Shown here one piece after another: positions 504 to 41,600 of a DNA stretch of 64,000 bases. Where the stretch lies: positions 804,902 through 868,901 of the forward strand of contig NZ_LMNI01000001.1 in NCBI RefSeq assembly GCF_001422925.1, in the 5' to 3' direction. The number at the start of each line of letters is the position of its first letter. Position 1 is the first letter of the stretch. Position numbers and translations under genes: made by a program. The DNA is from Microbacterium sp. Leaf288 (lineage in GTDB: Bacteria > Actinomycetota > Actinomycetes > Actinomycetales > Microbacteriaceae). Below the pieces are notes generated by a model. That model searched no databases, was not told the DNA's origin, and worked only from the letters and a program-made list of their open reading frames with translations.

Positions 504-1523
504 ATGATCAAGCTTCTGTCGCATCTGTCGTATGTGGCCATCACGTCGCCGGATGTCGAAGCATCCGTCGACTTCTACGTGAAGCAGGTCGGCCTCACCG
601 TCGTCGACCGCGTCGACGGCGCCGTCTACCTCCGCTGCTGGGGCGACTACTACGCCTACTCGGTCGTGGTCGTGCCGGGCGACGAGCCGGGTCTCGTGAC
701 CGCCGCGTGGCGCACGTCGAGCCCCGAGGCGCTCGAGGAGGCCGCCAAGCGCGTCGAGGCCGCCGGCATCCAGGGCGAGTGGATCGACGTCCACAAGATC
801 GGCCGTGCCTATCAGTTCACCGGCCCGTGGGGCCACACGCTGACCCTGCACTGGGACGTCACGCGCCACCACGACACCGAGGGCGACGCCGCGTCGATCT
901 ACCCCGACCGCCCGTCGCGCCGCAGCAAGGTCGCGGGCGCCCCGCGCCAGCTCGACCACGTCACGATCGCGACGAGCGACGTCGACGCCTTCGTCCAGTG
1001 GTACGTCGACGTGCTCGGCTTCCGCTTCATGGCGCGCACGCAGCTCGACGAGGCGCCGATCTCGGTGTTCTCGGTGCTCACGACGAACGAGAAGTCGCAC
1101 GACCTCGGCGTCGTGCTCGATGGCTCGACCCGCGCCGGCCGCGTGAACCACTACGCCTTCTGGGTCGACACCCGCGAGGAGCTGCTCATCGCCGCCGACG
1201 TGCTCGGCGAGAACGGCTACCCGATCGAGTACGGCCCGTCGATCCACGGCATCGGCGAGCAGAACTTCCTCTACTACCGCGAGCCCTCGAGCCTGCGTAT
1301 CGAGCTCAACACCGGCGGCTACCGCAACTACGTGCCCGACTGGGAGGCCAACACGTGGAAGCCGTCGCAGGGGTCGAACAACTTCTACCGCAACAGCGCC
1401 ATGCCGATGTCGATGACGGAGTCCTTCCCGCCCGCCGACGGTCCGTCGGCGACGGAGGAGGGCGTTCCGGATGAGATCAAGGACGCCCTGCTGAACCCGT
1501 ACGCCAAGCACGGCCAGGGCTGA
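504..1523 (+). CDS. Extradiol ring-cleavage dioxygenase (VOC family, catechol 2,3-dioxygenase type)
   Basis: The 339-residue protein has two VOC modules, the layout of type I extradiol dioxygenases that open catechols next to the two hydroxyls using Fe(II) and O2. The catalytic C-terminal module carries the expected 2-His-1-carboxylate metal triad, visible as H152 (LDHVTIATSD), H216 (VNHYAFW) and E267 (LRIELNTGG). ATG at 504 is chosen over an in-frame ATG at 459 because a purine-rich ribosome binding site lies just before it and residues 6-15 already begin the first VOC strand. It heads a run of FAH hydrolases, a flavin monooxygenase and a decarboxylase, so ring opening of a hydroxylated aromatic intermediate is the likely job. 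The exact substrate cannot be read from sequence. Confidence 0.88.
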   Translation: MIKLLSHLSYVAITSPDVEASVDFYVKQVGLTVVDRVDGAVYLRCWGDYYAYSVVVVPGDEPGLVTAAWRTSSPEALEEAAKRVEAAGIQGEWIDVHKIGRAYQFTGPWGHTLTLHWDVTRHHDTEGDAASIYPDRPSRRSKVAGAPRQLDHVTIATSDVDAFVQWYVDVLGFRFMARTQLDEAPISVFSVLTTNEKSHDLGVVLDGSTRAGRVNHYAFWVDTREELLIAADVLGENGYPIEYGPSIHGIGEQNFLYYREPSSLRIELNTGGYRNYVPDWEANTWKPSQGSNNFYRNSAMPMSMTESFPPADGPSATEEGVPDEIKDALLNPYAKHGQG

Positions 1524-1599: not shown

Positions 1600-2571
1600 A
1601 TGACGACGTCGTCACACGGACTGACCGCCCCTTTCGCCCTCGCGCGCTTCCGCGACGGCGATTCCGTGCGTCTCGGGCTCGTCGCCGGCGACCGCATCCG
1701 CGCGGTCTCGGATGACGAGCTCGGCGCCGCCGGCCTCAACGCCTTCCTGGCGCATCCCGATTGGGACCGCCTCCGCGCGCTCGCCGCAGAACAAGGGGGG
1801 TGGATGCCGCTGGCCGACGTCGTGCTCACCGCACCGGTCGAGCCCCGCCAAGTGGTGCAGGCGGGCGCGAACTATCGCGAGCACGTCATCGAGCTGGTCG
1901 TTGCCGGCCTCACGCAGGACCCCTCCCGCTCGCCCGAGGAGGCCCGCGAGTTCGCGGCCAAGATGATGGACGACCGCCGTGCGAACGGCGAGCCGTACTT
2001 CTTCCTCGGCCTGCCCACTGTCGTCGTCGGCGACGACGTGCCGCTCGTGCTGCCCGGCTACAGCGAGGTGCACGACTGGGAGCTGGAGCTCGCCGTCGTG
2101 ATCGGCACCGAGGCGTTCCGCGTCTCCCGCGAGGACGCACTGAATCACGTCGCGGGCTACACGATCGTCAACGACGTCACGACGCGCGACCTCGTCTTCC
2201 GCAAGGACATGAAGGAGATCGGCACCGACTGGTTCCGCTCCAAGAACGCCCCCGGCTTCCTTCCGACCGGTCCCTTCCTGGTGCCGGCGCCCTTCGTGGC
2301 GGGGGAGGACCTCACGGTGCGACTCGATCTCAACGGCGACACGATGCAGAACGGATCGACGAGCGACCTCCTCTTCGACATCCCGGCGCTCATCTCCGCC
2401 GCGTCGCAGACGACGGCGCTGCTGCCCGGCGATCTGCTGCTCACCGGAAGCCCTCCCGGGAACGGCCAGCACTGGAAGAGGTTCCTGCGTGACGGCGACG
2501 TCATGACGGGATCCATCTCGGGCCTCGGCACGCAGGTGGTCCGCTGCCTCGCGGAAGGACCGGCGGTATGA
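1600..2571 (+). CDS. Fumarylacetoacetate hydrolase (FAH) family protein
   Basis: This 323-residue protein has the FAH fold: an N-terminal cap to about residue 80, then the catalytic domain with the acidic metal-binding pattern in HDWELELAVVIG and VNDVTTRDL and a C-terminal LTGSPPGNG segment. FAH members hydrolyse or hydrate carbon-carbon bonds of 1,3-diketo or enol acids, which fits downstream processing of a meta-cleavage product. The start at 1600 follows GGAGAG at 1591-1596. Its stop overlaps the next start (ATGA at 2568-2571), showing coupled translation. It is one of four FAH paralogues in the island, and its individual step is not assignable. Confidence 0.85.
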   Translation: MTTSSHGLTAPFALARFRDGDSVRLGLVAGDRIRAVSDDELGAAGLNAFLAHPDWDRLRALAAEQGGWMPLADVVLTAPVEPRQVVQAGANYREHVIELVVAGLTQDPSRSPEEAREFAAKMMDDRRANGEPYFFLGLPTVVVGDDVPLVLPGYSEVHDWELELAVVIGTEAFRVSREDALNHVAGYTIVNDVTTRDLVFRKDMKEIGTDWFRSKNAPGFLPTGPFLVPAPFVAGEDLTVRLDLNGDTMQNGSTSDLLFDIPALISAASQTTALLPGDLLLTGSPPGNGQHWKRFLRDGDVMTGSISGLGTQVVRCLAEGPAV

Positions 2572-3566
2572 GCGCGCCGAGCGAGAACCCCGCCGACCTC
2601 GACCGCAACGACCCCGAGGCCGAGATCGCCGCGCGCGCCGAGGCGTTCCGCAACTGGGGCCGCTGGGGTGAGGACGACGTGCTCGGCACGCTCAACTTCA
2701 TCGATGCCGCCAAGCGGGTCGAGGCCGCCGCCCTCGTGCAGGACGGCGAGGTGATCTCGCTCGCGCAGGCGTTCGACACGAACGGCCCGCAGAAGGGGTG
2801 GCGCCGGCGCACCAATCCGGTGCACACGATGACCGACACCGGCACCGACGCCGAGCGCGGCAACCAGGGCTTCCCGCACGGCATCGGCGGCGCCGACGAC
2901 GTGATCGCGATGCCGCTGCAGTGCTCCACCCAGTGGGACGGGCTCGGGCACATCTTCGACCACGGCAACGCCTGGAACGGCCGGCGTGCGGGCGACGTCG
3001 TCACGAGCGACGGCGACCTCGTCACGGGGATCGAGCACGCGGCATCCGTCATCGTCTCGCGGGGGGTGCTGATCGACGTGGGCCGCCATCTCGCGCCCGA
3101 CACCGGCGAACTCGCCGACGGCTACGCGATCACCGTCGCCGACATCGAGGCGACCATCGCCGCGCAGGGCGCGTCGAGCCGCGTCGGCCGCGGCGACATC
3201 GTGCTGGTGCGCACCGGCCAGTACGCCCGCACGCGGCGCGACGGCTGGGGCGAGTACGCCGGCGGACCCGCGCCGGGGCTGTCGCTCACCACGGCAGGGT
3301 GGCTGCACCGCACCGAGATCGCCGCGATCGCCACCGACACGTGGGGCTTCGAGGTGCGGCCCAACGAGTTCGACGCACCCGCGTTCCAGCCGCTGCACCA
3401 GGTCGTGATCCCGAACATGGGACTCACGATCGGCGAGATGTGGAATCTCGACGCCCTCGCCGACGCGTGTGCGGCACGCGGGCGCTGGGACTTCCTGCTG
3501 TCGGCGGCGCCGCTGCCGATCACGGGGGCGGTCGGCTCGCCGATCAACCCCGTCGCGATTCTCTAA
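2568..3566 (+). CDS. Cyclase-family metal-dependent hydrolase
   Basis: The 332-residue protein belongs to the cyclase/kynurenine-formamidase-like family, whose members hydrolyse amides, esters or lactones using a metal site. The usual family box appears in modified form as STQWDGLGHIFDHG near residues 122-135, with Gln where many members have His. The gene overlaps the preceding FAH by 4 bp and lies 34 bp before the flavin monooxygenase. In this setting it may open a lactone or ester formed after ring cleavage, but that is inference. No signal peptide is present, so it acts in the cytoplasm. Confidence 0.82.
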   Translation: MSAPSENPADLDRNDPEAEIAARAEAFRNWGRWGEDDVLGTLNFIDAAKRVEAAALVQDGEVISLAQAFDTNGPQKGWRRRTNPVHTMTDTGTDAERGNQGFPHGIGGADDVIAMPLQCSTQWDGLGHIFDHGNAWNGRRAGDVVTSDGDLVTGIEHAASVIVSRGVLIDVGRHLAPDTGELADGYAITVADIEATIAAQGASSRVGRGDIVLVRTGQYARTRRDGWGEYAGGPAPGLSLTTAGWLHRTEIAAIATDTWGFEVRPNEFDAPAFQPLHQVVIPNMGLTIGEMWNLDALADACAARGRWDFLLSAAPLPITGAVGSPINPVAIL

Positions 3567-3600: not shown

Positions 3601-4734
3601 ATGACCGCAGTGAACAAGGTCGCGATCGCCGGAAGCGGCGTCAGCGGACTCGCCGCCGCCATCCAGCTCGCCAAGGCCGGCGTCGAGGTCGACGTCTTCG
3701 AGGCGAAGCCCGAGCTCAGTGCGCTCGGGTCCGGCATCTCGCTGCAGGGCAATGCCCTGCGCGTGTTCGACGCGCTCGGCGCGTGGGACGACATCCGCGC
3801 CGCCGGCTACCCCTTCGAGGGACTCAACCTGCGCGCTCCCGGGCCGGGTGCGCCGATCGTCGCCGAGCTTCCCGACGTCAAGACCGGCGGACCCGACTAC
3901 CCGGCGGCGATGGGGATGCCGCGGCCTGCACTCGCCCGCATCCTCCTCGACCACGCGCAGAAGGCGGGCGCGAACGTCCGCTTCGGAACCAAGGTCACGG
4001 GCCTCGAGCAGAGCGGCGACGGGGTCGAGGTCTTCGTCGACGGCGCCTCCGCCGGCTCGTACGACCTGCTGATCGGCGCCGACGGCCTGAACTCCGCCGT
4101 CCGCGGGCTCATCGGCATCGAGACCAAGCCCGAGCCGACCGGCATGGGCATCTGGCGCTCGTTCGTCTCGCGGCCCGCCGAGGTCGTCCGCAGCGAGCTG
4201 TACTACGGAGGCCCGGTCTACATCGCCGGCTACACCCCGACGGGCGACGACACGATGTACGCGTTCCTCGTCGAGAAGGCGCAGGACCGCTTCGACGTCT
4301 CCGACGAGGACGCCACCCGCGTCATGCTCGAGGAGTCCCGCGCCTACGACGGCCCCTGGAACTCGATCCGCGCCGACCTCGAGGGCGGTGCGCACGCGAA
4401 CTACACGTGGTTCACGAAGCACATCGTCGAGGGGGCGTGGAACCGCGGCCGCGTCGTCCTCATCGGGGACGCCGCGCACTCTTGCCCTCCGACGATCGCG
4501 CAGGGCGCGGCGCAGGGCCTCGAGGACGCGCTGGTGCTCACCGAGCTGCTGGCCGGCCGCGATGCGGTCGACGCGGCGCTGTGGGACGAGTTCCACGCGC
4601 GTCGGCTGCCGCGGGCCACGGCCGTGGTGGAGGCATCCGTCCAGCTCGGCCAGTGGCAGCTGGACGGCGTCCGGGACGCGGACGTCGCGGGCCTCATGTT
4701 CGGCATCGCGCACCAGATGGCGGTTCCCGCATGA
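3601..4734 (+). CDS. Class A FAD-dependent aromatic monooxygenase
   Basis: This 377-residue protein has the three motifs of single-component NAD(P)H flavoprotein hydroxylases such as salicylate or 3-hydroxybenzoate hydroxylase: GSGVSG at residues 11-16, the DG motif in IGADGLNS at D161, and the GD motif LIGDAAHSCPP at D290. Such enzymes hydroxylate a phenolic ring and prepare it for extradiol cleavage, matching the dioxygenase at 504. An AGAGAGG ribosome binding site precedes ATG 3601. The stop overlaps the next start (ATGA at 4731). Candidate substrates include hydroxybenzoates or a flavonoid A ring, and sequence alone does not decide. Confidence 0.87.
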   Translation: MTAVNKVAIAGSGVSGLAAAIQLAKAGVEVDVFEAKPELSALGSGISLQGNALRVFDALGAWDDIRAAGYPFEGLNLRAPGPGAPIVAELPDVKTGGPDYPAAMGMPRPALARILLDHAQKAGANVRFGTKVTGLEQSGDGVEVFVDGASAGSYDLLIGADGLNSAVRGLIGIETKPEPTGMGIWRSFVSRPAEVVRSELYYGGPVYIAGYTPTGDDTMYAFLVEKAQDRFDVSDEDATRVMLEESRAYDGPWNSIRADLEGGAHANYTWFTKHIVEGAWNRGRVVLIGDAAHSCPPTIAQGAAQGLEDALVLTELLAGRDAVDAALWDEFHARRLPRATAVVEASVQLGQWQLDGVRDADVAGLMFGIAHQMAVPA

Positions 4735-5771
4735 CCGAGCTCATTTCGGTCAGCGGCGACCAGATGCCGGTTGTCGACGTCCACGCACACCTGCTGCTGC
4801 CGGCGCTGCACGCCGAGGTCGAGCGCCGCGCGCCTGAGGAAGTGGCCGCGGCCGCCGACCTCGAGCGCCGGCGCAACGGCGTCGAGAGCCTGCAGGCGTC
4901 GGGCGCCATGATCGGCGCCCGCATACCGAAGCTCACCGACGTGCACGCCCGGCTCGCCGCGATGGATGAGCAGGGGGTCGACCGGCAGTGGGTCAGCGTG
5001 TCGCCGAACCACTTCTACCCGTGGGCGAACGAGGGGTTGTCGGGCTGGATCGCGGGGGAGACGAACCGGCTCATCGCCGAGCACGTCGCCCAGGCGCCCG
5101 ACCGCCTCGTCGGCCTCGGCGTCGTGCCCTTGCAGCACCCGGCGCACCTCGTCGAGTACCTCGACGACGCCGTGCTCGGCCGCGGTCTCGCGGGCGTCGA
5201 GATCTCGTCGTTCGCCGGTGATGTCGAGCTCTCGGACGAACGTCTCGAGCCGTTCTGGGCGCGCGCCGCCGAGCTCGGCTGCGTGATCTTCCTGCACCCG
5301 TTCGGCTGCAGCCTCGACGAGCGCCTCGACCGGTTCTACCTCTCCAACACGGTCGGGCAGCCGACCGAGAACGCCGTTGCTCTCTCGCACCTCATCTTCG
5401 CCGGAGTGCTCGACCGGCATCCGGGGCTCAAGATCGTCGTCGCGCACGGCGGGGGCTACCTGCCGTTCGCCATCGGGCGCTCTGACCGCGCGTGGCGCGT
5501 GCGCCCCGAGGCGCAGCGCTGCGCGCACGAACCGTCGAGCTACCTGAAGAAGCTGTGGTTCGACACCGTCGTCCACGACCCCATCGCCGTGCGCCACCTC
5601 GTCGAGGTCGCCGGGGGCTCGCGCGTCGTGCTCGGCAGCGACTTCCCGTTCGACATGGGGCTCGACGACCCGGTCGCCTTCGTGCGCTCGGCCGATCTTC
5701 CGGCCGAGATCACCGACCGCATCCTCGCCGGCAATGCCGCGGAGCTGCTGCGCACGAAGGTCTCCGCATGA
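4731..5771 (+). CDS. ACMSD-like amidohydrolase (probable aromatic acid decarboxylase)
   Basis: The 346-residue protein is an amidohydrolase-2 family TIM barrel of the ACMSD / gamma-resorcylate decarboxylase group. The metal-site pattern is complete: HxH at H18/H20 (VDVHAHL), H189 (FLHPF), H239 (VAHGGG) and D304 (GSDFPFD). Relatives remove CO2 from hydroxybenzoates or from carboxylated semialdehydes. Between a ring hydroxylase and an FAH hydrolase this role would fit, either before or after ring opening. Four-base overlaps with both neighbours indicate one translationally coupled operon. Confidence 0.84.
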   Translation: MTELISVSGDQMPVVDVHAHLLLPALHAEVERRAPEEVAAAADLERRRNGVESLQASGAMIGARIPKLTDVHARLAAMDEQGVDRQWVSVSPNHFYPWANEGLSGWIAGETNRLIAEHVAQAPDRLVGLGVVPLQHPAHLVEYLDDAVLGRGLAGVEISSFAGDVELSDERLEPFWARAAELGCVIFLHPFGCSLDERLDRFYLSNTVGQPTENAVALSHLIFAGVLDRHPGLKIVVAHGGGYLPFAIGRSDRAWRVRPEAQRCAHEPSSYLKKLWFDTVVHDPIAVRHLVEVAGGSRVVLGSDFPFDMGLDDPVAFVRSADLPAEITDRILAGNAAELLRTKVSA

Positions 5772-6736
5772 GGATCGCCCGCTGGACCGACGGCGCCGGC
5801 ATCGGCGAGGGGTTCGTCGTCGGCGATCGCGTCGTCCCGTTCCCCGACGGCCAGACGGTCGCCGACATCCTCGCCGGGGGAGTGGATGCTGCGCACGCAG
5901 CGTTCGGCCGGGTGAAGGGTGAGCCCGGCACAGCGCTCGCCGACGTGCGCCTGCTGGCGCCGGTGGTCCCGGCCTCCGTCCGTGATTTCGTCGCCTTCGA
6001 GGAGCACGTCGAGGGCGTGAGCGCGTCGGTCGACGGCAAGAGCGAGGTCGTGCCCGAGTGGTACCAGGCGCCGACGTTCTACTTCACGAACCCGCACACG
6101 ATCCTCGGCCCGGACGAGCCCGTCGCCCCTCCGGTCACCGAACGGCTCGACTTCGAGCTGGAGGTCGCCGTCGTCGTCGGCAACGCGCCCGGGGTCGGCG
6201 CGGCGAACCTGACGGCGGGGGAGGCGGCCTCCCGCATCTTCGGGTACACGATCATGAACGACTGGTCGGCCCGCGACATCCAATCCCGCGAGATGAAGGT
6301 GCGACTGGGGCCGGCGAAGGGCAAGGACTTCGGCACCAGCCTCGGCCCGTGGATCGTGACGGCCGACGAGCTGGAGCAGTACGTCGACGCCGACGGCTTC
6401 CTCGCGATCCGCGCCGAGGTGCGCATCAACGGCGAGCTCGTCGGCGAGGACCTCGTGTCGAACATGGGCTGGCCGTTCCCCGAGCTCGTCGCGTACGCGT
6501 CGCGCAACTCCCGGGTCGTGCCGGGGGACGTGTTCGGCAGCGGCACGGTCGGAAACGGCGGATGCCTCGGCGAGCTGTGGGGCCGGGGCTCGACGATCCC
6601 GTCCCTGCGCGAGGGCGACGAGGTGCGCATGACCGTCGAGGGCATCGGCGAGCTCGTCGGGACCGTGGGCGCGGCAGCGGCGGCGCCGGCGTTGCCCGCT
6701 GCGCGCCCCCGCCCCCGCGCGAGGCGGCGCTTCTGA
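5768..6736 (+). CDS. FAH family hydrolase, second copy
   Basis: This 322-residue FAH member shows the family metal-binding acids in ERLDFELEVAVVVG and NDWSARDIQ, with TFYFTNPHTILGPDE matching the substrate-pocket region of acylpyruvate or fumarylacetoacetate hydrolases. It closes the first operon. Its last 20 residues are a low-complexity Arg/Pro tail that looks dispensable. The final base of its TGA stop is also the first base of the operator-like palindrome at 6736-6764, so operon end and the next promoter are packed together. Confidence 0.85.
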   Translation: MRIARWTDGAGIGEGFVVGDRVVPFPDGQTVADILAGGVDAAHAAFGRVKGEPGTALADVRLLAPVVPASVRDFVAFEEHVEGVSASVDGKSEVVPEWYQAPTFYFTNPHTILGPDEPVAPPVTERLDFELEVAVVVGNAPGVGAANLTAGEAASRIFGYTIMNDWSARDIQSREMKVRLGPAKGKDFGTSLGPWIVTADELEQYVDADGFLAIRAEVRINGELVGEDLVSNMGWPFPELVAYASRNSRVVPGDVFGSGTVGNGGCLGELWGRGSTIPSLREGDEVRMTVEGIGELVGTVGAAAAAPALPAARPRPRARRRF

Positions 6737-6876: not shown

Positions 6877-8370
6877 ATGAGCATGTCACCGTGGAGGCTT
6901 CGCCTCCTGATCGTCTCCCTCCTGACGGTCGCGATCCTCGGAGCCCTCGACCACACGATCGTGTCGACGTCCCTCGCGACCGTCGCAGGAGAACTCGGAG
7001 CCCTCGCCCAGATGGGGTGGGTCGTCGTGGGCTACACGCTGGCGAGCACCGTGCTGCTGCCGGTCCTCGGAAAGCTGGGCGATGCGGTGGGGCCGCGCGC
7101 CGTGTTCCTGGTGTCGCTGGTGCTGTTCCTCGTCGCGTCGCTCGCGTGCGGCTTCGCGCAGGACATGCCGCAGCTCATCGGCGCGCGCGTCGTGCAGGGC
7201 ATGAGCTCGGCGGGGCTGCACCTGATGTCGCAGACCATCGTCGCCCGCGTGACCACCCCCCGCGAGCGGCCGCGGTATCTCGCGCTGATCGGCGCCGCCT
7301 TCCCCGTCGCGATCCTCATCGGCCCTGTGCTCGGCGGCCTCATCACGGACTACTGGGGCTGGCAGTGGGTGTTCTGGATCAACATCCCGTTTGGCGTCGC
7401 CGCGCTCCTGCTCGCCCTCGTCGCCGTGCCCCGTCTGCCGGGCTTCGGCCGGCGTCGGTTCGATGTCGGCGGCTCCGTCTCGTTCGCGATCGCGATGGTC
7501 GCTCTGGTGCTCGCCGTGACGTGGGTCGGCGATCCCGTGCTGGCTGCAGCATCCGTCGTCGCCTTCGTCGTGGCGGGCATGGCGTTCGCCGCGTTCTTCC
7601 TCATCGAGCTGCGGGCGCCCGAACCCCTGGTTCCCCTGCGGCTCTTCGCCGACCGCACCATCGCGGTGGGCACGGTGCTGTCGGCCATCATCGGCATCGG
7701 GCTGTTCTCGATCACCGCGTATCTGCCGACGTACTTCCAGATGGCCTACCGCACGAGCGCGACGGTGTCGGGTCTCGTGCCGATCGCGACCGTGTTCGGC
7801 ATGCTGGTGTCGAACCTCGCGACCGGGTGGCTCGTCAGCCGCACCGGGCACTACCGCGTCTACTGCATCGTGGGCACCGCGCTGAGCGCCGCCGGGCTGT
7901 TCGTCATGTCGGTCCTCCCGGTGGGCTTGCCGCTGTGGGTGCCGATGATCGTCATGGCCGTCGTCGGCGTCGGCACCGGCGCCTTCATGAGTCTCGTCAT
8001 CGCGGTCGTGCAGAGCGCCGCGCCGCGTCGCGACACCGGCAGCATGACGGCCACCGTGAACCTCGTGCGCCAGGTCGGCTCGACCGTCGCGACCGCGATC
8101 ATCGGCGGAGTCATCGGCTTCGGCGTCGCGGCACTGCTCCCATCGTCGCTCGATGCGGCGACGCTGACACCGCAGTTCGTGCACGACGCCTCCGCCGCGG
8201 TGCAGGGCCAGGTCGCCGGGATCTACAGCGGCATCTTCACTCCCGTGTTCGCGGCTCTCGCCGTCACCTACGCCGTCGGCGTCGTCGCCGCGGTGCTCCT
8301 TCCCGCCGGTCGCCTCTCGGACGAGTCCGAGCCCGCACCGGCACCCAGTTCCGAACCCCTCACCGCGTGA
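6877..8370 (+). CDS. MFS transporter, DHA2 (EmrB/QacA-like) family
   Basis: The 497-residue protein has about 14 predicted membrane helices and the DHA2 signature in helix 1 (GALDHTIVSTSLATVAGELG, residues about 23-42), followed by GKLGDAVGPR as the motif-A loop. These are drug/H+ antiporters, and in catabolic clusters they often export or import aromatic compounds. ATG 6877 is preferred over upstream ATG 6763, because 6763 lies inside the operator and the intervening 38 residues are Arg/Pro-rich and not membrane-like. ATG 6883 is an equal alternative. It begins the second forward unit and is followed 17 bp later by the GMC gene. Confidence 0.85.
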   Translation: MSMSPWRLRLLIVSLLTVAILGALDHTIVSTSLATVAGELGALAQMGWVVVGYTLASTVLLPVLGKLGDAVGPRAVFLVSLVLFLVASLACGFAQDMPQLIGARVVQGMSSAGLHLMSQTIVARVTTPRERPRYLALIGAAFPVAILIGPVLGGLITDYWGWQWVFWINIPFGVAALLLALVAVPRLPGFGRRRFDVGGSVSFAIAMVALVLAVTWVGDPVLAAASVVAFVVAGMAFAAFFLIELRAPEPLVPLRLFADRTIAVGTVLSAIIGIGLFSITAYLPTYFQMAYRTSATVSGLVPIATVFGMLVSNLATGWLVSRTGHYRVYCIVGTALSAAGLFVMSVLPVGLPLWVPMIVMAVVGVGTGAFMSLVIAVVQSAAPRRDTGSMTATVNLVRQVGSTVATAIIGGVIGFGVAALLPSSLDAATLTPQFVHDASAAVQGQVAGIYSGIFTPVFAALAVTYAVGVVAAVLLPAGRLSDESEPAPAPSSEPLTA

Positions 8371-8387: not shown

Positions 8388-9983
8388 ATGTCTTCCACCC
8401 CCACCGTCGCTGTCGTCGGCTCCGGCCCGATCGGCTCCGCGTACGCCCGCGTCATCCTCGAGGCGAGCCCTGACGCCCGCGTCGTGATGTTCGAGGCCGG
8501 CCCGCAGCTCACCGCCGTTCCCGGTGAAAGCGTGCGCAACATCGCCGACCCCGACGAGAAGGCCCGTGCTCGCGAGATGTCGCAGGGGCCGCAGTCTGGC
8601 GCCTTCCGCGAGAGTCTGGGCATCCCCGCCGGTGTCGTCGTCGAGGGGATGTTCACGGCCCGGCAGGGGACGCACCTGCTCGACTTCGGCGGGCCGGGAT
8701 CCGCGCACGCCGCCACCTTCCCCGCGGCGGCGGCCGCGACGAACGTCGGCGGCCAGGGCGCGCACTGGACCTGCGCGATACCGCGTCCGGCCTTCAGTGA
8801 GAAGGTCGACTTCATCGGCGACGCCGAGTGGGAGGACCTGATCTCGACGGCCGAGGGACTGCTGCACGCGCAGCAGGCGGCGTTCGCCGATTCGGCCATC
8901 GGAACGGCGATCCGCTCGCTCCTGAACGACGAGTTCGGCGCCGAGCTGCCCGCCGGCTACGGCGTGGGCACCCTGCCGGTCGCCGGAGATCCGCAGCCCG
9001 ACGGCTCCATGGTGTGGGCCGGTGCGAACACGGTGCTGGGACCCCTCATCGAGGCCGGCACCCCCGAGTCGGCGCGGTTCGAGCTGCGCGACCTCACGCT
9101 GGTGCGGCGCATCGAGACCGAGGACGGCGTGGCCACCGGAGTCACGATCGAGGATCTCCGCACGAAAGAGGTCTCGTTCTTCCCGGCCGATGTCGTCGTC
9201 GTGGCCGCCGACGCGTTCCGCTCTCCGCAGCTGCTCTGGGTCAGCGGCATCCGTCCCCGCGCCCTCGGGCGCTACCTCACCGAGCACCACGTCGTCATCA
9301 CGACGGTGGCCCTCGACGAGGAGCGCATGAGCGCGCGCATCACGGACGAGGAGTTCACGGCCGAGCTCGCCCGACGCGCCCAGAACGCGGCCGACCCGGT
9401 CGCGGCCGTCAACCGGATCCCGTTCTCCGAGCCGGGGCACCCCTTCTCGCTCCAGGTCATGTACGCCGAGAACCCGCCCTTCCAGCTCGACCCCTCGCAC
9501 CCCGCCGCGGGGAACCGCTGGGGCTACGTGAACATGGGTTACGGCGTGCGCAAGCACCCGCGCGTCGAGGACGGCGTCACCTTCGACGACAGCGAGCTCG
9601 ACTACCGCGGCTTTCCCAACATGACGATCGAGTACGCGCTGACGGATGCCGAGCAGCCCGAGCTCGACGAGGCCACCGCGCGCGTGCGTCGGGCCGGCGC
9701 CGCCCTCGGCGCCTTCGTCGCCGAGCCGCGGCTGCTGCCCAACGGCTCGAGCCTGCACTACATGGGCACCCTGCGGATGGGACCGTCCGACGACGGCACG
9801 TCGGTCGCGGATCCGTACTCGCGGGTCTGGGGCTACGACAACCTCGTCGTCGGCGGGAACGCCCTGATCCCGACGGCCAACACCATGAACCCGACGCTCA
9901 TGAGCGTTGCGATCGCCGTCCGCGGTGCCCGCAAGCTCGTCGAGCAGCTGGATGCCGCGCGGGTCGAGCAGGTCGCCCGATGA
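8388..9983 (+). CDS. GMC oxidoreductase, pyranose-oxidase / C-glycoside 3-oxidase type
   Basis: The 531-residue flavoprotein starts with a Rossmann motif (VVGSGPIGSAYAR, residues 9-21) typical of pyranose 2-oxidases. GGQGAHWTCA places H126 where those enzymes carry the flavin-linking histidine. The C-terminal pair H457 (HYMGTLRMG) and N501 (TMNPTL) matches the catalytic His/Asn of GMC sugar oxidases with the expected spacing. Relatives oxidise free sugars or the glucose of plant glycosides at C2 or C3. Actinobacterial homologues oxidise C-glycosides before cleavage of the C-C bond. No partner C-deglycosidase is visible here. An AGAAGAGG ribosome binding site precedes ATG 8388, and the stop overlaps the next start (ATGA). 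The glycoside role is inferred from family and context. Confidence 0.82.
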   Translation: MSSTPTVAVVGSGPIGSAYARVILEASPDARVVMFEAGPQLTAVPGESVRNIADPDEKARAREMSQGPQSGAFRESLGIPAGVVVEGMFTARQGTHLLDFGGPGSAHAATFPAAAAATNVGGQGAHWTCAIPRPAFSEKVDFIGDAEWEDLISTAEGLLHAQQAAFADSAIGTAIRSLLNDEFGAELPAGYGVGTLPVAGDPQPDGSMVWAGANTVLGPLIEAGTPESARFELRDLTLVRRIETEDGVATGVTIEDLRTKEVSFFPADVVVVAADAFRSPQLLWVSGIRPRALGRYLTEHHVVITTVALDEERMSARITDEEFTAELARRAQNAADPVAAVNRIPFSEPGHPFSLQVMYAENPPFQLDPSHPAAGNRWGYVNMGYGVRKHPRVEDGVTFDDSELDYRGFPNMTIEYALTDAEQPELDEATARVRRAGAALGAFVAEPRLLPNGSSLHYMGTLRMGPSDDGTSVADPYSRVWGYDNLVVGGNALIPTANTMNPTLMSVAIAVRGARKLVEQLDAARVEQVAR

Positions 9984-10435
9984 CCGGGGGAGATGCCGCA
10001 CTTCGCGCAGGCAATCGCGCGGTGGTCGAGGCGTTCTTCACCTCGAACCTCGGCAATCCGGCCGAGCGGATCGCGCTGTGGCACCCGGACGGGGTGAAGG
10101 AGCTGCCGTTCGCGCCGTCCGAGCTGCCCAAGACGCGGTGGGAGGGCCGCGACGACATCGTCGCCAACACGCACGCGAACGCCGGCATGTTCGAGAACGT
10201 CGTCCACACCGACCTCGTGATCCACGACTGCGTCGACCCCGGGCTGTTCTTCGTGACGAGTCGGATGGTCGACGAGGCTCGGTTCCTCGGTGAGCCCTAC
10301 CCGCAGTCGTTCGTGCACCTGATCCGCGTGCAGGACGGCGCGGTGATCCTGCAGCAGGAGTTCTTCGACTCGGAGATCCTCGCGGGCGCCGAGCGCGCAG
10401 CGCGGGCGAAGGGCCGCACGCCCCTCGGGTCGTGA
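9980..10435 (+). CDS. PhzA/PhzB-like (SnoaL/NTF2-fold) protein
   Basis: This 151-residue single-domain protein has an NTF2-like cone-fold pattern. DGVKELPFAP near residues 36-45, DPGLFFV near 87-93 and the closing QEFFDSEIL resemble PhzA/PhzB-type proteins, which bind small ring compounds. It is translationally coupled to the sugar oxidase (ATGA at 9980), so it probably acts on that enzyme's product or substrate. It is not the TIM-barrel or small beta partner known from C-deglycosidases. Calling it a new accessory of such oxidation would be speculation. Confidence 0.72.
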   Translation: MTGGDAALRAGNRAVVEAFFTSNLGNPAERIALWHPDGVKELPFAPSELPKTRWEGRDDIVANTHANAGMFENVVHTDLVIHDCVDPGLFFVTSRMVDEARFLGEPYPQSFVHLIRVQDGAVILQQEFFDSEILAGAERAARAKGRTPLGS

Positions 10436-11426: not shown

Positions 11427-12671
11427 TCACGCCTCCGGGCGATATCGAGCCACCAGCTGCCGGTAGACATCCGCGCTCGGCTTCTCGGTGCGTGCGAAGG
11501 TCTCGGGATCCACCTCGTGCAGACCGAGCCTCGGGCCGTAGCCGAAGATCCACTCGAAGTTGTCCATGAGTGTCCAGTGGCAGTACCCGATCACGGGGAC
11601 GCCGTCGGAGATCGCCTGAGCGAGGCCCTCGAGCGACGGCTCGATGAAGTCGGCACGGATGCTGTCATCCGGCGTGCTGACGCCGTGCTCGCTGACGAGC
11701 ACCGGGACGCCGGCCACGGCGTAGGCGTATTCGACGGCGCCGCGCAGCGAGTCGGGGTCGACCGTCGTGCCCATGCCGTTGAGCACGGCGCCCTCCGGCG
11801 CGGGCAGCAGTCCCTCGGGTCCGTAGACCAGGCGCTCGTAGTTCTGCACGCCGACGAAGTCGTCGTCGGCGGCCAGTCGCAGCCAGTAGTCGTAGACCTC
11901 TGCCCGCTTGCGGTCGCGGACGGCTTCGCCGCCGGGGACGGCGACGTCGTCGCACATCGCGAGCGAGAGACCGACCGGCAGGTCGGCGCGACGCTCCTTG
12001 ATGGCGGCCTTCGCCGCGGTGTGGGCCGCCGTTATGCCGGCGCGCATCCCGGCGAAGTCCTCACGGGTCATGACGTTGCCGGCCCGGTATCTCTCCACGC
12101 CGGCGGCTTCGGATGCGGCTGCCAGCGTCGCGCGTTCGAGGTCGGCCACGAAGGAGGGAAGGTCCGCCCACGTCAGCATCTCGGGCAGATCCGGCTCGTT
12201 GAAGGTCACACCGAGCTCGATGCGGTCGCCGAAGCGGTCCATCACGACGCCGCAGTAGCGGGCGAAGAGCTCCGGCGCCTCGGGGTCCAGCCACGCCCCG
12301 CGGCCCGCGAACCAGTGCGGCGACGTGAAGTGGTTGAACGTCACGATCGGCGCGAGGCCGCGGGCGCGGCATCCGTCCACGATCGCCTCGTAGTGATCGA
12401 GCGCCTCGGACGAGAACTCGCCTTCAACAGGTTCGACGCGGGCCCATTCGACCGAGAAGCGATAGGCGTTGAGCCCCAGGCCGGCGACGATGTCGAGGTC
12501 GGACTCCCACAGCTCCCAGCCGTTGGTCGCCTTGCCCGAGCGTGCCTGGAAGACGGTCGGCGTCACGTTCTCGAGGAACCACGTGTCGCTGGTGACGTTG
12601 TCGCCCTCGTTCTGATGGCCGGCGGTGGCGACTCCCCAGAGGAAGTCGGCGGGGAAGGATGCTGCGGGCAT
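11427..12671 (-). CDS. GH1 family beta-glycosidase
   Basis: The 414-residue protein covers a complete GH1 barrel. The acid/base Glu is E159 in TFNEPD. The nucleophile is E328 in VSEHGVSTPDD, where most family members have TENG or SENG, so the residue after the nucleophile is His. The N-terminal FLWGVATAGHQNEG matches the glycone-binding box. It has no signal peptide and acts in the cytoplasm, consistent with uptake of intact glycosides by the divergent ABC transporter. GAGAGGA precedes the ATG. The promoter carries the proposed IclR-type box directly beside its -10. Confidence 0.88.
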   Translation of the reverse strand: MPAASFPADFLWGVATAGHQNEGDNVTSDTWFLENVTPTVFQARSGKATNGWELWESDLDIVAGLGLNAYRFSVEWARVEPVEGEFSSEALDHYEAIVDGCRARGLAPIVTFNHFTSPHWFAGRGAWLDPEAPELFARYCGVVMDRFGDRIELGVTFNEPDLPEMLTWADLPSFVADLERATLAAASEAAGVERYRAGNVMTREDFAGMRAGITAAHTAAKAAIKERRADLPVGLSLAMCDDVAVPGGEAVRDRKRAEVYDYWLRLAADDDFVGVQNYERLVYGPEGLLPAPEGAVLNGMGTTVDPDSLRGAVEYAYAVAGVPVLVSEHGVSTPDDSIRADFIEPSLEGLAQAISDGVPVIGYCHWTLMDNFEWIFGYGPRLGLHEVDPETFARTEKPSADVYRQLVARYRPEA

Positions 12672-19449: not shown

Positions 19450-19580
19450 CGCCGGGTAGGGATGTCGAACTTCCTCAGGGTGCGGAACCTCGTGAGACTT
19501 GAGGCATCTGGAACGGTCGATCGGAATGGCCCGATGTTCCCGTCTGCCTAACGGCACCACTGTCTTACATGGAGGTAAGC

Positions 19581-20126
19581 ATGACCACTTTCGCCGCTGA
19601 CGACCCCGACAAGGTCGCGTTCGCCGGAATCCTGCCCGCGGCCCCGAAGCCTTACGTGATCGGCAACGGGCAGGGTGAGAAGTCGCTCGTCTTCGACCAG
19701 CTCTTCGAGATCCTGGTCTCGGGAGACGAGACGGACGACCAGTACGGCGCGTGGACGATGAAGGCGCGTCAGGGGGACCGCATCCCCGCCCACACGCACC
19801 TCGAGACCCACGAGTTCTTCTACGTCGTCGACGGCGAGATCTCGGTGTGGATGGACGACCAGGCGGACTACCACAGCAAGACCACGCTCACCACGGGCGA
19901 CTTCGCGTTCGTGCCGGCGAACATCGTCCATGCGTTCAAGATCGAGAACACCACGACGGTGTTCGGCGCCGGCACGGCGGGCTTCGAGCGGTTCTTCCAC
20001 GCGATCGGCCAGAAGACCGACCTCGATGAGCCTCAGGGTGTGTACGTACCGGACTTCTCGATCATGCGCGCCGCGGGCGAGAAGTACGCCACGATCTTCA
20101 TGCCCGAGTTCCGGTTCCGCGACTGA
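19581..20126 (+). CDS. Quercetinase-like monocupin dioxygenase
   Basis: The 181-residue single cupin has a complete motif 1 (G65, H71, H73, E78 in GDRIPAHTHLETHEFF) and motif 2 with H117 (VPANIVHAF), giving the 3-His-1-Glu metal site. Length, the N-terminal KPYVIGNGQGEK stretch and the FERFFHAIG segment resemble the Streptomyces monocupin quercetinase QueD, which opens the C ring of flavonols and releases CO. A GGAGGT ribosome binding site at 19571 fixes the start at 19581. It leads an operon with two alpha/beta hydrolases that could cleave the resulting depside ester. Substrate identity is inference. Confidence 0.78.
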   Translation: MTTFAADDPDKVAFAGILPAAPKPYVIGNGQGEKSLVFDQLFEILVSGDETDDQYGAWTMKARQGDRIPAHTHLETHEFFYVVDGEISVWMDDQADYHSKTTLTTGDFAFVPANIVHAFKIENTTTVFGAGTAGFERFFHAIGQKTDLDEPQGVYVPDFSIMRAAGEKYATIFMPEFRFRD

Positions 20127-26800: not shown

Positions 26801-29524
26801 ATGACACCGTATGACCTGCGCGTCGAACACCTCCGCGCCCCGATCGCCCTCGGGGCGCGGCAGCCCCGCCTCTCGTGGCTCGTCGACCACGCGCGCGCGG
26901 CGTGCGAGCTGGAGGTGTCGACCGGGGGCAGGCTCGTCTGGGCGAGCGGCGAGATCGAGAAGGCGGATGCCGCTCCCGCCCTCTACGCGGGCGAAGCGCT
27001 GACCTCGAACACCGTCTACGAATGGCGCGTGCGCAGTCGTCCGTCGGGCGGCGAATGGTCGGACTGGGCCACCTCGACGTTCGAGACGTCGCTGCTGGAT
27101 GCCTCCGACTGGGTCGCGCCCTGGATCGAGCCCGGGCAGCGGGACGCGGTCATCGAGCGGTGGAGCATCGTCGACTGGATCCGCGGACTCGGCCCCGACT
27201 CGCCGCCCGAAGAGCGCCTGCGGCCCCCGCGGCTGCTGCGGCAGGCGTTCGAGATCGGTCCCGGCGTCGTGCGGGCGCGGCTGTTCGCGACCGCTCGCGG
27301 CGTGTACTCCGCGTCCGTCAATGGCCGGCGCGCGGACGACCAGGTGCTCGCGCCCGGGTTCGACAGCTACGAGCACCGCATCTCGTTCGCGTCGTCCGAC
27401 GTGACGGCGGCGCTCGTCGAGGGCGAGAACGTCCTCGGGCTGGCGCTGGCCGACGGCTGGTGGGCCGGCCGGCTGGGCCTCACGGGCTCGAGCGCGCAGT
27501 TCGGCACGCGCACGTCGGCGATCTGGCAGCTGCACGTCGACTACGCCGATGGCACGACCCAGCTCGTGACCTCCGGCGCCGATGTGCGCAGCGCGCCCGG
27601 GCCGTGGGCGTACGCCGATCTGTTCGTCGGCGAGAGCTTCGATCGCCGCGCGGTGCCGTCGGGCTGGGACCGCCCCGGATTCGACGACGGCGGATGGATG
27701 CCGGTGGCCGAGGTCGGCACCGATCACGCCGTTCTGGTGCCGTTCCGCGGCGAGCCGGTACGCCGGGTGCTCGAGGTGCGCCCGGTCGCGCTCGTCGAGA
27801 CCGCGCAGGGCACGATCGTGGACTTCGGCCAGGTGCTCGTCGGTCGCGTGCGGGTGCGTCTGCGCGACATGACCGCTGGTCACCGCGTCACGATCGAGCA
27901 CACCGAGACGCTCGCGGCCGACGGCTCGTGGTTCGCCAACATCGTCGGCATCAACAAGGAGCAGACGGACGTCTTCGTCTCGGCCGGCGGAGCGGACGAG
28001 TGGGAGCCCGAGTTCACGTTCCACGGCTTCCGGTACGCGCGCATCAGCGGTTCGACCGCGCCGCTCGAGCCGGACGACGTCGTCGCCGTGGTGCTCGCGA
28101 GCGATCTGGAGCAGACCGGCGCGTTCGCGGCATCCGATCCCCGCCTCGACCGCCTGCACCAGAACGTCGTGTGGAGCCAGCGCGGCAACTTCCTGTCGGT
28201 GCCGACCGACTGCCCGCAGCGCGAGCGCGCGGGCTGGACCGGCGACATCCAGGCGTTCGCCGGCGCGGCGACGAACAACGCGCAGGTGCTGCCGTTCCTC
28301 GAGCGGTGGCTCGACAACCTGCGGGCCGACCAGCTGCCGGACGGCCGCATCCCGATCTTCTCGCCGCGCTCGCCGTTCGACGCGGAGGCCGCGGCGAACG
28401 CGCAGGGCATCGGCTCGATCGTGGCCGCGGCCGGATGGAGCGACGCGATCGCCATCGTGCCGTGGACCCTCTACGAGCGCACCGGCGACGTCCGCGTGCT
28501 CGAGGAGAACTTCGACGCGATGCTCCGGTGGATCGAGTACCAACGCCGCACTGCGGCGGCGGAGCTGCCCACGTCGCTCGCGGGCGTGGACCTCGCCGAG
28601 GCGCGCATCCGCGCGCAGGCGCTGCTCTACAACACCGGCTCGCACTTCGGCGACTGGCTGACGCCGAGCACGATGGAGGGGCTGCCGACCCACGAAGCCA
28701 TCGGCATCGCGCCGGCCCTCACCAGCGAGTACCTCGCTCCGATGTTCCAGGCGAACACGCTCACGATCGCCGCTCAAGCGGCAGAAGTGCTCGGACGACC
28801 CACGGATGCCGCCGACCTCGCCGAGCGGGCAGCTCGGGTGCGTGCCGCCTTCGCCGCCGAGTACGTCGACGCCGACGGCGACCTGCCGGTGCGCCTCCAG
28901 GGTGTCTACGTCGTCGCGCTCGCGTTCGACATGGTGCCTGCCGGGCTGCGCGCCCGCACGACCGCGCGGCTCGTCGAACTCGTCCACGAGCGAGGCGACC
29001 GGCTCGACACCGGCTTCCTCTCGACGCCGTACCTGCTCGATGTGCTGTGCGATCACGGTCACCCCGAACTCGCCCGCACCCTGCTGTGGCAGTCCGAGAT
29101 GCCGTCGTGGCTCTACGAGGTCGACAACGGCGCGACGACCATCTGGGAGACGTGGGATGCGATCGCGCCGGACGGTTCGATCCGCCCGATGTCGTTCAAC
29201 CACTACGCGCCGGGGAGCGTCGACGACTGGCTCTATCGCCGGGTCGCCGGCATCCGCTCCACCTCGCCCGGCTATCGCACCGCCGTCATCCAGCCGGACT
29301 TCGATGCCGGGGTCGGCCAGGTGCGCGCGCACGTCGGCACGCCCTACGGGCGGCTCGGCGTGGAGTGGGCGGTCGCCGCGGGTGCGGCATCCGTGACCGT
29401 CGACGTGCCGCACGGCGTGACCGCCCGGCTGGCGACGCCTGCAGGAGAGATCGCGTTGGAGCCCGGGCGCACGCGCCACACGCTGCCTACCGGACGCCCC
29501 GCATCAGCTTCAGCACCGGCTTGA
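26801..29524 (+). CDS. GH78 alpha-L-rhamnosidase
   Basis: The 907-residue protein has the full bacterial GH78 layout: N-terminal beta domains (1-430), an (alpha/alpha)6 barrel (about 440-800) and a C-terminal beta domain. The catalytic acid region is PTDCPQRERAGWTGD with E475, and the base region is GATTIWETWDAI with E783. It lacks a signal peptide, so rhamnosides must be imported first. Substrates may be rutin-type flavonoid rhamnosides or rhamnogalacturonan fragments. It ends the operon at 23394-29524, and its last 38 bp overlap the 3' end of the convergent transporter gene. Confidence 0.9.
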   Translation: MTPYDLRVEHLRAPIALGARQPRLSWLVDHARAACELEVSTGGRLVWASGEIEKADAAPALYAGEALTSNTVYEWRVRSRPSGGEWSDWATSTFETSLLDASDWVAPWIEPGQRDAVIERWSIVDWIRGLGPDSPPEERLRPPRLLRQAFEIGPGVVRARLFATARGVYSASVNGRRADDQVLAPGFDSYEHRISFASSDVTAALVEGENVLGLALADGWWAGRLGLTGSSAQFGTRTSAIWQLHVDYADGTTQLVTSGADVRSAPGPWAYADLFVGESFDRRAVPSGWDRPGFDDGGWMPVAEVGTDHAVLVPFRGEPVRRVLEVRPVALVETAQGTIVDFGQVLVGRVRVRLRDMTAGHRVTIEHTETLAADGSWFANIVGINKEQTDVFVSAGGADEWEPEFTFHGFRYARISGSTAPLEPDDVVAVVLASDLEQTGAFAASDPRLDRLHQNVVWSQRGNFLSVPTDCPQRERAGWTGDIQAFAGAATNNAQVLPFLERWLDNLRADQLPDGRIPIFSPRSPFDAEAAANAQGIGSIVAAAGWSDAIAIVPWTLYERTGDVRVLEENFDAMLRWIEYQRRTAAAELPTSLAGVDLAEARIRAQALLYNTGSHFGDWLTPSTMEGLPTHEAIGIAPALTSEYLAPMFQANTLTIAAQAAEVLGRPTDAADLAERAARVRAAFAAEYVDADGDLPVRLQGVYVVALAFDMVPAGLRARTTARLVELVHERGDRLDTGFLSTPYLLDVLCDHGHPELARTLLWQSEMPSWLYEVDNGATTIWETWDAIAPDGSIRPMSFNHYAPGSVDDWLYRRVAGIRSTSPGYRTAVIQPDFDAGVGQVRAHVGTPYGRLGVEWAVAAGAASVTVDVPHGVTARLATPAGEIALEPGRTRHTLPTGRPASASAPA

Positions 29525-38644: not shown

Positions 38645-41600
38645 CTACCTCACCGTGACCGTGATCGCCTGGGAGCTGGTGGCTCCGGCGGCGTTCGCGA
38701 ACTCGGCGACGTAGGTGTACGTGCCGGGCGCGCGTCCCGCGACGGCGGTCTTCGCCTGCTGCGCGTTCGGGGAGGCGGCGGTGAGCGACTGCTCGTCGAT
38801 CACCACACCGTTCTCGAACAGGCGGTAGGCGGTGCCGTTGGTGCCCCACCACAGATTGGCGGTGACGGTGTAGTTGCCGTCCTTGTCCCAGTTGTCGTGG
38901 GAGAGGACGGGCGCGGCGGGCGCGGCGTCCTTCACCTTCACCGTGACCGAGGTGGTCGAGGTGGTGCCCTTCGCGTTGATGAGCTCGCCGGTGTACACGT
39001 AGGTGCCGTTGGGCTTGCCCGACACGTCGACGGTCGACAGCTGCGCCTTCGGCGAGTTCGCGTCGAGCAGCTTCGTCGAGATGAGGGTGCCGTTCTCGTA
39101 CAGCTTGTACACCGCGCCGTTGACCCCCGACCAGAGGTTCATCGACACCGTGAACGTGCCGTCGTGCAGCCCGTCCTCCCAGCCGGAGTTCGTCGACAGC
39201 ACACCGCGACCGGGCTTGGCGGCGGCGCCTTCGTCGTCGAACACCAGCAGCTGCACCGACGCGGCGGTGACGAGGCCGTCGTGGTTGACCGCGTTCACCG
39301 TCAAGGTGTGCGGGCCGACGAGGTCCGTCAGCGCGATGACCTGACCCGGCGCGACCGGCGCGCCGTCGAACGCGATGTCGAGGTTTCGCACGCCCGACTC
39401 GGGGTCGTCCGCGCTCACCCCCACCGTGAACGTCGCCGTGCTCGGCAGCAGCGTGCCGTCCGCGGGCAGCCCCGACAGCACCGGTGCGGTGGTGTCCGTC
39501 GCTCCCGAAGGGTCACCGGTGACCGCGATGCGCGGTGCCGGCGGGGTGGTCATCCCGTCGCCCAGGAAGAACGACGTCTGCGGCGGCTGGTTGTAGCCGG
39601 TGTTCTGCCACGCGACCGACAGGCGGTAGACCGGGTCGTGCATCAGCGTGCGGATGCGCAGGTCGGTCTCGTCGGTGGTCGAGTAGATCCGCAGCTCGCT
39701 CGAGTCCGCCGAGCGCCACGCGATCTCCTCCCGCCAGTCGCCGAACAGGTCGGCCTGCAGGTTGGGCGTGCCCTTCGTCGAGTTGTTCGAGCGGGCGCCG
39801 TCGGCCTTCACGATCACGTCGGCGGACTCGGTCTCCCAGTTCCACTTGGCGATCGTCGGCACGCCCTGCGACGTGGTCGCATTCCAGTCGTGGTCGACGA
39901 TCTCGCGGAGCGGGTCGCCGTCGAACCAGGCGAGGAAGTTCGCCGCGGGGATCTTCTCGGCGATGAGCTCGCCCGTGGACGACTTCAGCTGCCCGACGGG
40001 CGAGTTCCACGCGGCGTCGCCGCCGATGGCCCAGCCCTCGGCCCCTTCGTAACGGGGATCGATGTCGCCGGATGCCGCGCGGCCGGTGTCCTTCACCGCG
40101 GGGATCGACCACAGCACCTCGCCCGTGCGGGCGTCGCGCATGGTCGCGCCGAGGTTGCCCGAGTTGCCCATGTCCTCGTGGGCCGCGAAGACCTCGAGGC
40201 CCGGGTTCGAGGGGACGAGATCCGACACGTGGATCGCGTCGCCGTGGCCGAGTCCGGTCGAGTAGAGGAGCTGCCCGTCGTCGTCGACAGTGGCCGAGCC
40301 GTAGACGATCTCGTCCTTGGCGTCGCCGTCCACGTCGGCCACCGACAGGTTGTGGTTGCCCATCCCGTAGAAGCCCTCGTTGCCGTCTTCGTTCGAGTCG
40401 AGCACCCACCGCTCGGTGAGCTGCGAGCCGTCGAAGTCGTACGCCGCCATCACCGCGCGGGTGTAGTACCCGCGGCTGAAGACCGCGCTCGGGTGCTCGC
40501 CGTCGAGGTAGGCCGTCGCCGCGAGGAACCGGTCCACCCGGTTGCCGTAGGCGTCGCCCCAGGCTCCGACGTCGCCGCGGGCGGGCACGTAGTCCACCGT
40601 GTCGATCGCGGCTCCGGTCAGGCCGTCGAACACCGTGAGGTACTCGGGGCCTGTGAGCACGTAGCCCGAGCTGTTGCGGTAGTCGGCGCTGGCGTTGCCG
40701 ATCGGCTGGCCGATGCCGTCGATCGTGCCGTCGCCGGTCTTCATCATGACCTCGGCACGTCCGTCGCCGTCGTAGTCGTACACCTGGAACTGCGTGTAGT
40801 GCGCGCCGGCCCGGATGTTCACGCCCAGGTCGATGCGCCACAGCCGCGTGCCGTCGAGCCGGTAGGCGTCGAGGTACACGTTGCCGGTGTACCCGGCCTG
40901 CGAGTTGTCCTTCGCGTTGGACGGGTCCCACTTCACCAGCAGCTCGTACTGGCCGTCGCCGTCCACGTCGCCCACGCTCGTGTCGTTCGCGGAGTACGTG
41001 TACGGCTGGCCGTCCTTGCTGTAGGCGTCGGCCGGCTTGTCGAGCGGGACCGACCGGTACGCGCCGGCCTGCACCCCGAACGGGTCCGTCTCGGTCGTCT
41101 CGACGCCGTCCAGCACCTTGGTGATGAAGTAGACGGATGCTGCGGCCCCGGCCTCGTCGAGATAGTTCGTCGAGTCCGTGATCGGCGCCGAAGTGACCCG
41201 CTTCCCGTCACGGTAGACGTGGAAGGCCACGCTGTCGGGATCGGTGCCGAGCATGCGCCACGACACCAGGTTCCCGGCATCCGTCTTCACCGCCGCCGGA
41301 GCGCGGTCGAGGTACTCTGCCTGCCGCTGCAGCACCGTCACCGCCTCGGTGCCGAGCTGCGCCGACGCGGCGCCGGCGCCGCCCGCGTTCACCGCGACCA
41401 CCGTGTAGAAGTACGGGATCGTGGTGAGCACGTCGGTGTCGGTGTAGCGGCTCGCGTCGGCCACGCCGATCAGCTCGCCGCGCTCGCCCTCGACCTCGGA
41501 GCGGAACACCAGGTAGTACAGCGCGCCCAGCGGCTGTGCCCAGGAGAACTCCACCGCTCGCTTGTCGATGCTCTCGACGGAGAGCCCCGACGGGGCCGCG

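Follow-up and report, generated by a model that had tools for sequence, protein, structure and literature searches.

Does the small gene that directly follows a flavoenzyme oxidase gene in Microbacterium sp. Leaf288 encode a new lyase for the oxidase product, or does another enzyme take that step? We addressed this question in a 64,000-nucleotide stretch of the genome (the window; C1:804902-868901 of a 4.75-Mb assembly), in which the stop of the oxidase gene OX2 (8388..9983, plus strand, 531 amino acids) and the start of the second gene, NTF2 (9980..10435, plus strand, 151 amino acids), share a 4-bp ATGA overlap. An earlier note on this DNA had proposed that OX2 is probably an active sugar or C-glycoside oxidase and that its NTF2-fold, PhzB-like neighbour, found where known oxidases of this kind are paired with a C-deglycosidase, may be a new type of lyase or carrier. 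Genes were called with a simple codon-usage script, which was retrained for loci L100 and L094 and placed the NTF2 start at 10022.

A clade II oxidase and its relation to MPOx

Matches to PDB and NCBIfam entries, an alignment and a tree place OX2 among the GMC flavoenzymes, as an actinobacterial pyranose/C-glycoside oxidase of clade II (MPOx-like). The top matches in a PDB sequence search were 8qve (pyranose oxidase), 7dve (CarA) and 7qf8 (PsG3Ox), at E ~1e-100, and choline or cellobiose enzymes scored far below them. This ranking rules out a choline- or cholesterol-oxidase relation: the best matches are pyranose/C-glycoside oxidases rather than the choline and cholesterol enzymes that the earlier note had considered as an alternative grouping. 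A fungal-type pyranose oxidase is also ruled out, by the substrate loop and by a score of 172.5 bits against NCBIfam TIGR02462 (pyranose oxidase), below the curated cut-off of 544.9.

The catalytic residues are present where they had first been read, with H126 in AHWTC, H457 in SSLHYMG and N501 in NTMNPT, and they share alignment columns with H127, H440 and N484 of PsG3Ox. Across 46 OX2 rows (which include three repeats of a genome, one Arthrobacter and one Agromyces), the catalytic His and Asn (H440 and N484 columns) were kept in every row, and the R94, H127, T129 and Q340 columns were likewise conserved throughout. The K55 column was R and the Q297 column, possibly misaligned, was V in 46/46 rows. 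According to PMC10807413, bacterial enzymes outside clade IV have His at the Q297 column and the clade II flavin motif is printed GAWH where the OX2 sequence reads GAHW, so that the Q297 column may be aligned differently there. Values of pN/pS of 0.35-0.45 (three pairs) indicate that OX2 evolves as coding sequence. With its catalytic columns intact and its closest PDB matches at E ~1e-100, OX2 is predicted to be an active pyranose/C-glycoside oxidase, as first proposed. In a tree that used 31 of 59 rows, gave long-branch warnings and did not have the MPOx sequence itself among its rows, OX2 formed a single group with support of 100/100, apart from CarA, PsG3Ox, 8qve and four further rows. OX2 is thus a new member of a known, recently characterized oxidase clade.

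Within clade II, OX2 looks like an ortholog of MPOx, judged from the loop and numbering printed for that enzyme. MPOx (WP_134352214.1), from Microbacterium sp. 3H14, is described in PMC11673046 as the first characterized clade II member, and the OX2 substrate loop, 362-NPPFQL-367, has the same letters and numbering. The loop is variable within OX2 (NPPFQL in 10/46 rows); that of the Arthrobacter row reads SETTPFPMDP, matching the clade II consensus loop printed in PMC10807413. The two enzymes also share a genus, and each genome holds a second, CarA-type (clade IV) oxidase. According to PMC11673046, the second enzyme of strain 3H14 is 40% identical to MPOx; in the window genome, the CarA-type paralog (C1:790832-792331, 42% identity) lies ~21 kb upstream of OX2. 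With the clade IV enzymes CarA/MtCarA (7dve) and PsG3Ox (7qf8), OX2 shares the family, the catalytic His and Asn and the AHWT motif; however, the clade IV loop is ASPVxL or similar and is accompanied by K55 and Q297, whereas OX2 has NPPFQL, R and V (the alignment of the V column being doubtful).

The same paper also bears on the substrate. Traits expected of an MPOx-type enzyme are activity on phlorizin and aspalathin, a monomeric state and non-covalent FAD. MPOx has kcat/Km values (per M per s) of 8100 for phlorizin, 220 for aspalathin and 7.1 for glucose, and its activity on mangiferin, puerarin, homoorientin, carminic acid and the other glycosides tested is negligible. Mangiferin, puerarin, orientin and glucose were the assay substrates suggested in the earlier note, and most of these are probably the wrong choice for OX2, given that MPOx has negligible activity on mangiferin, puerarin and homoorientin and weak activity on glucose. 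The MPOx authors leave its physiological role open between defence and the breakdown and use of phlorizin.

Ring-cleavage and deglycosidase genes around OX2

Upstream of OX2, all on the plus strand, lie genes that family matches and conserved gene order identify as a ring-cleavage operon. EDO, an extradiol (catechol 2,3-type) dioxygenase (504..1523), is followed by the fumarylacetoacetate-hydrolase family protein FAH1 (1600..2571), a cyclase-family protein (2568..3566), the FAD-binding monooxygenase FMO (3601..4734), an Amidohydro_2 family protein (4731..5771) and a second fumarylacetoacetate-hydrolase family protein, FAH2 (5768..6736). An MFS transporter gene (6877..8370 from the script-called start, with 6763 also possible) stands directly upstream of OX2. 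The order EDO-FAH1-cyclase-FMO-amidohydrolase-FAH2-MFS-OX2 is conserved at Microbacterium loci. We defined OX2-positive genomes by an ortholog of at least 70% identity, which gave 45 genomes (41 with full-length and 4 with fragmentary genes), and read gene order in 43 of them, leaving out the contig-end fragments of G055 and G104. The transporter was the constant neighbour, directly upstream of OX2 at 41/43 loci; in G044 the contig ends before OX2, and the OX2 piece of G132 sits on a 3.6-kb contig with an IclR-like gene upstream. Within the stretches read, which mostly covered ~9 kb either side of OX2 (genes farther off count as missing), EDO and FMO were found at 39 of the 43 loci, FAH1 and the amidohydrolase at 38, the cyclase and FAH2 at 37, and NTF2 at 4. 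In M. barkeri, G100 and Agromyces, OX2 does not have the ring-cleavage genes as immediate neighbours; EDO lies elsewhere in these genomes.

A super-locus with this EDO-to-OX2 order and car-type genes was also seen in another genus, on the 1.0-Mb plasmid of Arthrobacter sp. StoSoilB13 (L100); NTF2 was absent among the genes called in 41.6 kb of this super-locus. Elsewhere in the window, a cupin (19569-20126) is near quercetin 2,3-dioxygenases (PDB yxaG, E 7e-35; QueD, E 5e-29) and could be an enzyme that cleaves the flavonol C-ring. A GH1-family protein (11427-12671) and a bacterial alpha-L-rhamnosidase (26801-29524) would suit hydrolytic removal of O-linked sugars, and a minus-strand open reading frame of ~2068 amino acids spans 38645-44851.

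Upstream of the window lie genes for CarA, CarB, CarC, a second CarC and CarB, a SnoaL_4 protein, Gfo/Idh/MocA proteins and ThuA. CarB and CarC of this genome pass the Pfam cut-offs. A TIM-barrel protein from the same region matches the solved 2-hydroxy-3-keto-glucal hydratase 8ro4 (E 1e-35), although 2zds, labelled a 'putative DNA-binding protein', is its top PDB match (E 1e-154). Closer to OX2, ~3 kb upstream of the window and ~11 kb upstream of the oxidase gene, a divergent CarB/CarC-like fusion of 479 amino acids (L030:1567-3006) has CGDB (C-glycoside deglycosidase beta subunit) and TIM-barrel matches that are both below the Pfam cut-offs. A 433-amino-acid fusion of CGDB with an AP_endonuc_2 TIM barrel (C1:774069-775364), ~38 kb from OX2, is very close to the solved 8qrz/8un2 (E 7e-242); a search of open PMC papers with 8qrz and 8un2 as terms found no paper naming either. 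The presence of CarB-CarC and this fusion in the same genome region undercuts the contrast from which we started, that of an NTF2-fold protein instead of a deglycosidase.

The genome survey leads to the same conclusion. When 198 genomes of the genus were searched with the Agromyces fusion as query, 43 had relatives, 39 of them at 78-88% identity and four (G038, G091, G094 and G100) at 51-55%. These 43 were all OX2-positive (43/45), as against 0/153 OX2-negative Microbacterium genomes (Fisher p ~1e-41, for genomes that are related and hence non-independent), and the two OX2-positive genomes without a relative were G044 (88% complete) and G132 (72% complete). CGDB/TIM deglycosidases are the common partner of OX2, and replacement of a C-deglycosidase by NTF2, which is missing from 41/45 OX2-positive genomes, is not supported. 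As the super-locus including CarA tends to move as a block, co-occurrence cannot single out the deglycosidase of OX2, and position beside OX2 says more. CGDB/TIM-type genes directly follow OX2 in G100 and Agromyces ramosus; they are near OX2 in M. barkeri, with NTF2 between, and in G094, after a 133-amino-acid gene; and in the poor assembly of G091 the 51% relative is beside a broken OX2. The window genome has a copy of the Agromyces block (the fusion at 88%, a second CGDB/TIM fusion at 82%, an alpha/beta hydrolase and a GH43-type protein at 78%), which lies 38 kb from OX2 and does not have NTF2 inside it.

Two further observations concern related genes. The SnoaL_4 protein, a second NTF2-fold protein (260 amino acids, L029:14969-15751), is encoded between the second CarC and the second CarB; the clusters of the Arthrobacter plasmid, G062, G047 and G038 also hold a relative (next to the CarB/CarC-like fusion in G038), and G099 and G083 lack one at the corresponding place. 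M. trichothecenolyticum has a third oxidase of the family (L110:5753-8614, G062:C9), 57% identical to CarA and 38% to OX2, with a separate CarB/CarC-like pair behind it.

A rare NTF2-fold gene linked to OX2

NTF2 is recognized by Pfam matches, orthologs and a structure model. Its matches to SnoaL_2 (28.0 against a cut-off of 27) and PHZA_PHZB (PF03284; 25.6 against a gathering threshold of 24) were both narrow, in keeping with the PhzB-like label first given to this neighbour; a Pfam scan at E <=0.001 returned only these two families, and neither of the deglycosidase domains PF19906 and PF01261. Its pN/pS of 0.15-0.44 (six pairs of four sequences) indicates that it evolves as coding sequence, and mean column identity was 88% over five orthologs. 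The model, built from five close sequences, has a mean pLDDT of 70 with residues 27-57 below 50. Its best structural matches were PhzA/B and PhzB2 (Foldseek E 2e-7; Z 12.2-13.1 over 133-135 residues, rmsd 2.8-3.6). Lower in the ranking came isomerases, cyclases, dehydratases and epoxide hydrolases that share this fold; PA3332 (1z1s) was the best sequence match, and engineered digoxigenin binders were among the PDB matches. Relative to PhzA/B of Burkholderia cepacia R18194 (3b4o and others), to which its identity is 17-25%, NTF2 keeps the E140 column as E127 and R41 as R30 but has N63 at the H73 column and N67 at the S77 column (HMMER alignment). We take E140 and H73 to be the catalytic residues of PhzA/B. 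NTF2 is thus PhzA/B-like in fold and, with N63 at the H73 column, probably not PhzA/B by function. No other phenazine family was found among 30 window proteins scanned.

The gene is rare. Only 5/198 genomes of the genus had a match, which rules out a general partnership of NTF2 with the oxidase, and one of the five was a weak 29% hit in G086, where the gene calls of the surrounding 18 kb included no oxidase. The remaining four are among the 45 OX2-positive genomes, and a scan of genome contigs, with four loci, adds Agromyces ramosus. No further ortholog emerged from surveys of the phylum (7/396 matches at E <=1e-8, of which the strongest after that of the window itself had 2.6e-12), of the family (2/398 matches, the second of which, in G784, is a tandem pair fused into one gene, with E 1.3e-29) or of plasmids (four records, all matches at <=34% identity). 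The tandem gene of G784 (L094:8878-9774), which the gene caller missed and which was taken from the listing of open reading frames, encodes a 298-amino-acid protein of two fused NTF2 domains behind ABC-transporter genes; both domains match the NTF2 profile, the second more strongly.

Over the 198 genomes, the association of NTF2 with OX2 was modest (Fisher p 0.002). Where NTF2 occurs, it lies within three genes of OX2 in 5/5 genomes, from two genera and in three arrangements: same-strand and directly behind OX2 in the window, M. trichothecenolyticum and M. ureisolvens; convergent to OX2 in M. barkeri; and third after OX2, behind two CGDB/TIM fusions, in Agromyces ramosus. The linkage on which the original proposal depended is thus conserved, and recurrence in three arrangements together with the conservation seen in pN/pS speaks for a real link between NTF2 and the OX2 pathway, although the cases are few. 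The rarity of the gene (4/45) could instead mean that NTF2 is a bystander carried with the cluster, and the digoxigenin binders among its matches would fit a binding protein without catalysis in the pathway; but the same neighbour recurs across two genera, and its sequence is conserved at the pN/pS and column identity given above, and we regard either of these roles as rather unlikely.

If NTF2 belongs to the pathway, what would it do there? It seems very unlikely to act on the OX2 product as its cognate lyase, a beta-eliminase that replaces CarBC in these species, a reading that follows the suggestion in the earlier note of a new type of lyase acting on the 3-keto product. Its same-strand position directly after OX2 in three genomes would suit such a role, NTF2 folds include isomerases and dehydratases, and the CGDB/TIM fusion of the window genome is ~38 kb off; but CGDB/TIM-type genes are present in all four NTF2-bearing Microbacterium genomes and in Agromyces ramosus, those of Agromyces and M. 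barkeri lie beside OX2 together with NTF2, and most OX2-positive genomes do without NTF2. It is possible, if doubtful, that NTF2 works on the aglycone side, with a ring-cleavage or ring-opened product as its substrate instead of the sugar or keto-glycoside. In the window it stands at the end of the ring-cleavage operon, and its fold matches include many polyketide cyclases or isomerases that act on ring compounds. EDO was moreover found in 5/5 genomes searched, M. barkeri and Agromyces included, which weakens the case for NTF2 being independent of the ring-cleavage operon; yet in those two EDO is away from OX2, and NTF2 stays beside the oxidase. Because NTF2 keeps its place near OX2 even where the ring-cleavage genes are elsewhere, we lean slightly, and only tentatively, towards a role on the sugar or keto-glycoside side of the pathway.

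A proposed pathway and known systems

OX2, as a clade II oxidase and likely MPOx ortholog, probably functions in a pathway for breakdown of phenolic glucosides, each reaction step of which we infer. The MFS transporter would import a phenolic glucoside, and OX2 would oxidize the glucose of the imported compounds, probably of dihydrochalcone type, with O2 as acceptor; the substrate class and the acceptor are extrapolated from MPOx, and the C3 position from the family. Beta-elimination by the CGDB/TIM-barrel deglycosidases, whose genes lie 19-38 kb upstream, would cleave the keto-glycoside. The resulting sugar fragment would be hydrated by the protein related to 2-hydroxy-3-keto-glucal hydratase and then reduced by Gfo/Idh/MocA enzymes, while the A-ring of the aglycone would be hydroxylated and cleaved by the FMO/extradiol dioxygenase/FAH operon. 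NTF2 may be a species-restricted accessory of this pathway and not its deglycosidase: a small acid-base enzyme of isomerase, tautomerase or dehydratase type, in which E127 is the candidate catalyst and whose substrate would be a keto-sugar or keto-glycoside intermediate. It could conceivably catalyse an undescribed step, for example isomerization or dehydration of a 3-keto-glycoside or of 2-hydroxy-3-keto-glucal, recruited in a few Microbacterium and Agromyces species. A search of the open PMC literature found no paper in which an NTF2 or SnoaL protein appears together with C-glycoside enzymes.

Two things stand out from this analysis, the genomic setting that clade II oxidases conserve and a single rare accessory gene. 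These oxidases sit at the end of an aromatic ring-cleavage operon (39/43 Microbacterium loci) and share one super-locus with CarABC and other deglycosidases, a setting that suggests breakdown of entire phenolic glucosides for catabolism, and NTF2 provides a specific candidate for an extra step.

Parts of this scheme have counterparts in known systems. The usual partners of such oxidases are the deglycosidases DgpB/DgpC, DfgB and its partner, CarB/CarC and 8qrz/8un2; enzymes of this kind are present upstream of the window, but these known CGDB/TIM-barrel proteins differ from NTF2, the product of the gene that directly follows OX2 here. In PMC10628242, AtOGE beta-eliminates 3-keto-phlorizin, and hydration and reduction of the sugar fragment belong to the same pathway; AtOGE is unrelated in sequence to the CGDB/TIM deglycosidases, although the beta-elimination step is of the same type. 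On the aglycone side, the fde and ifc pathways for the flavonoid A-ring, as presented in PMC11303751 and PMC11069340, combine a FAD monooxygenase with a glyoxalase-type extradiol dioxygenase, and the window operon is alike in kind, by gene make-up rather than by sequence comparison.
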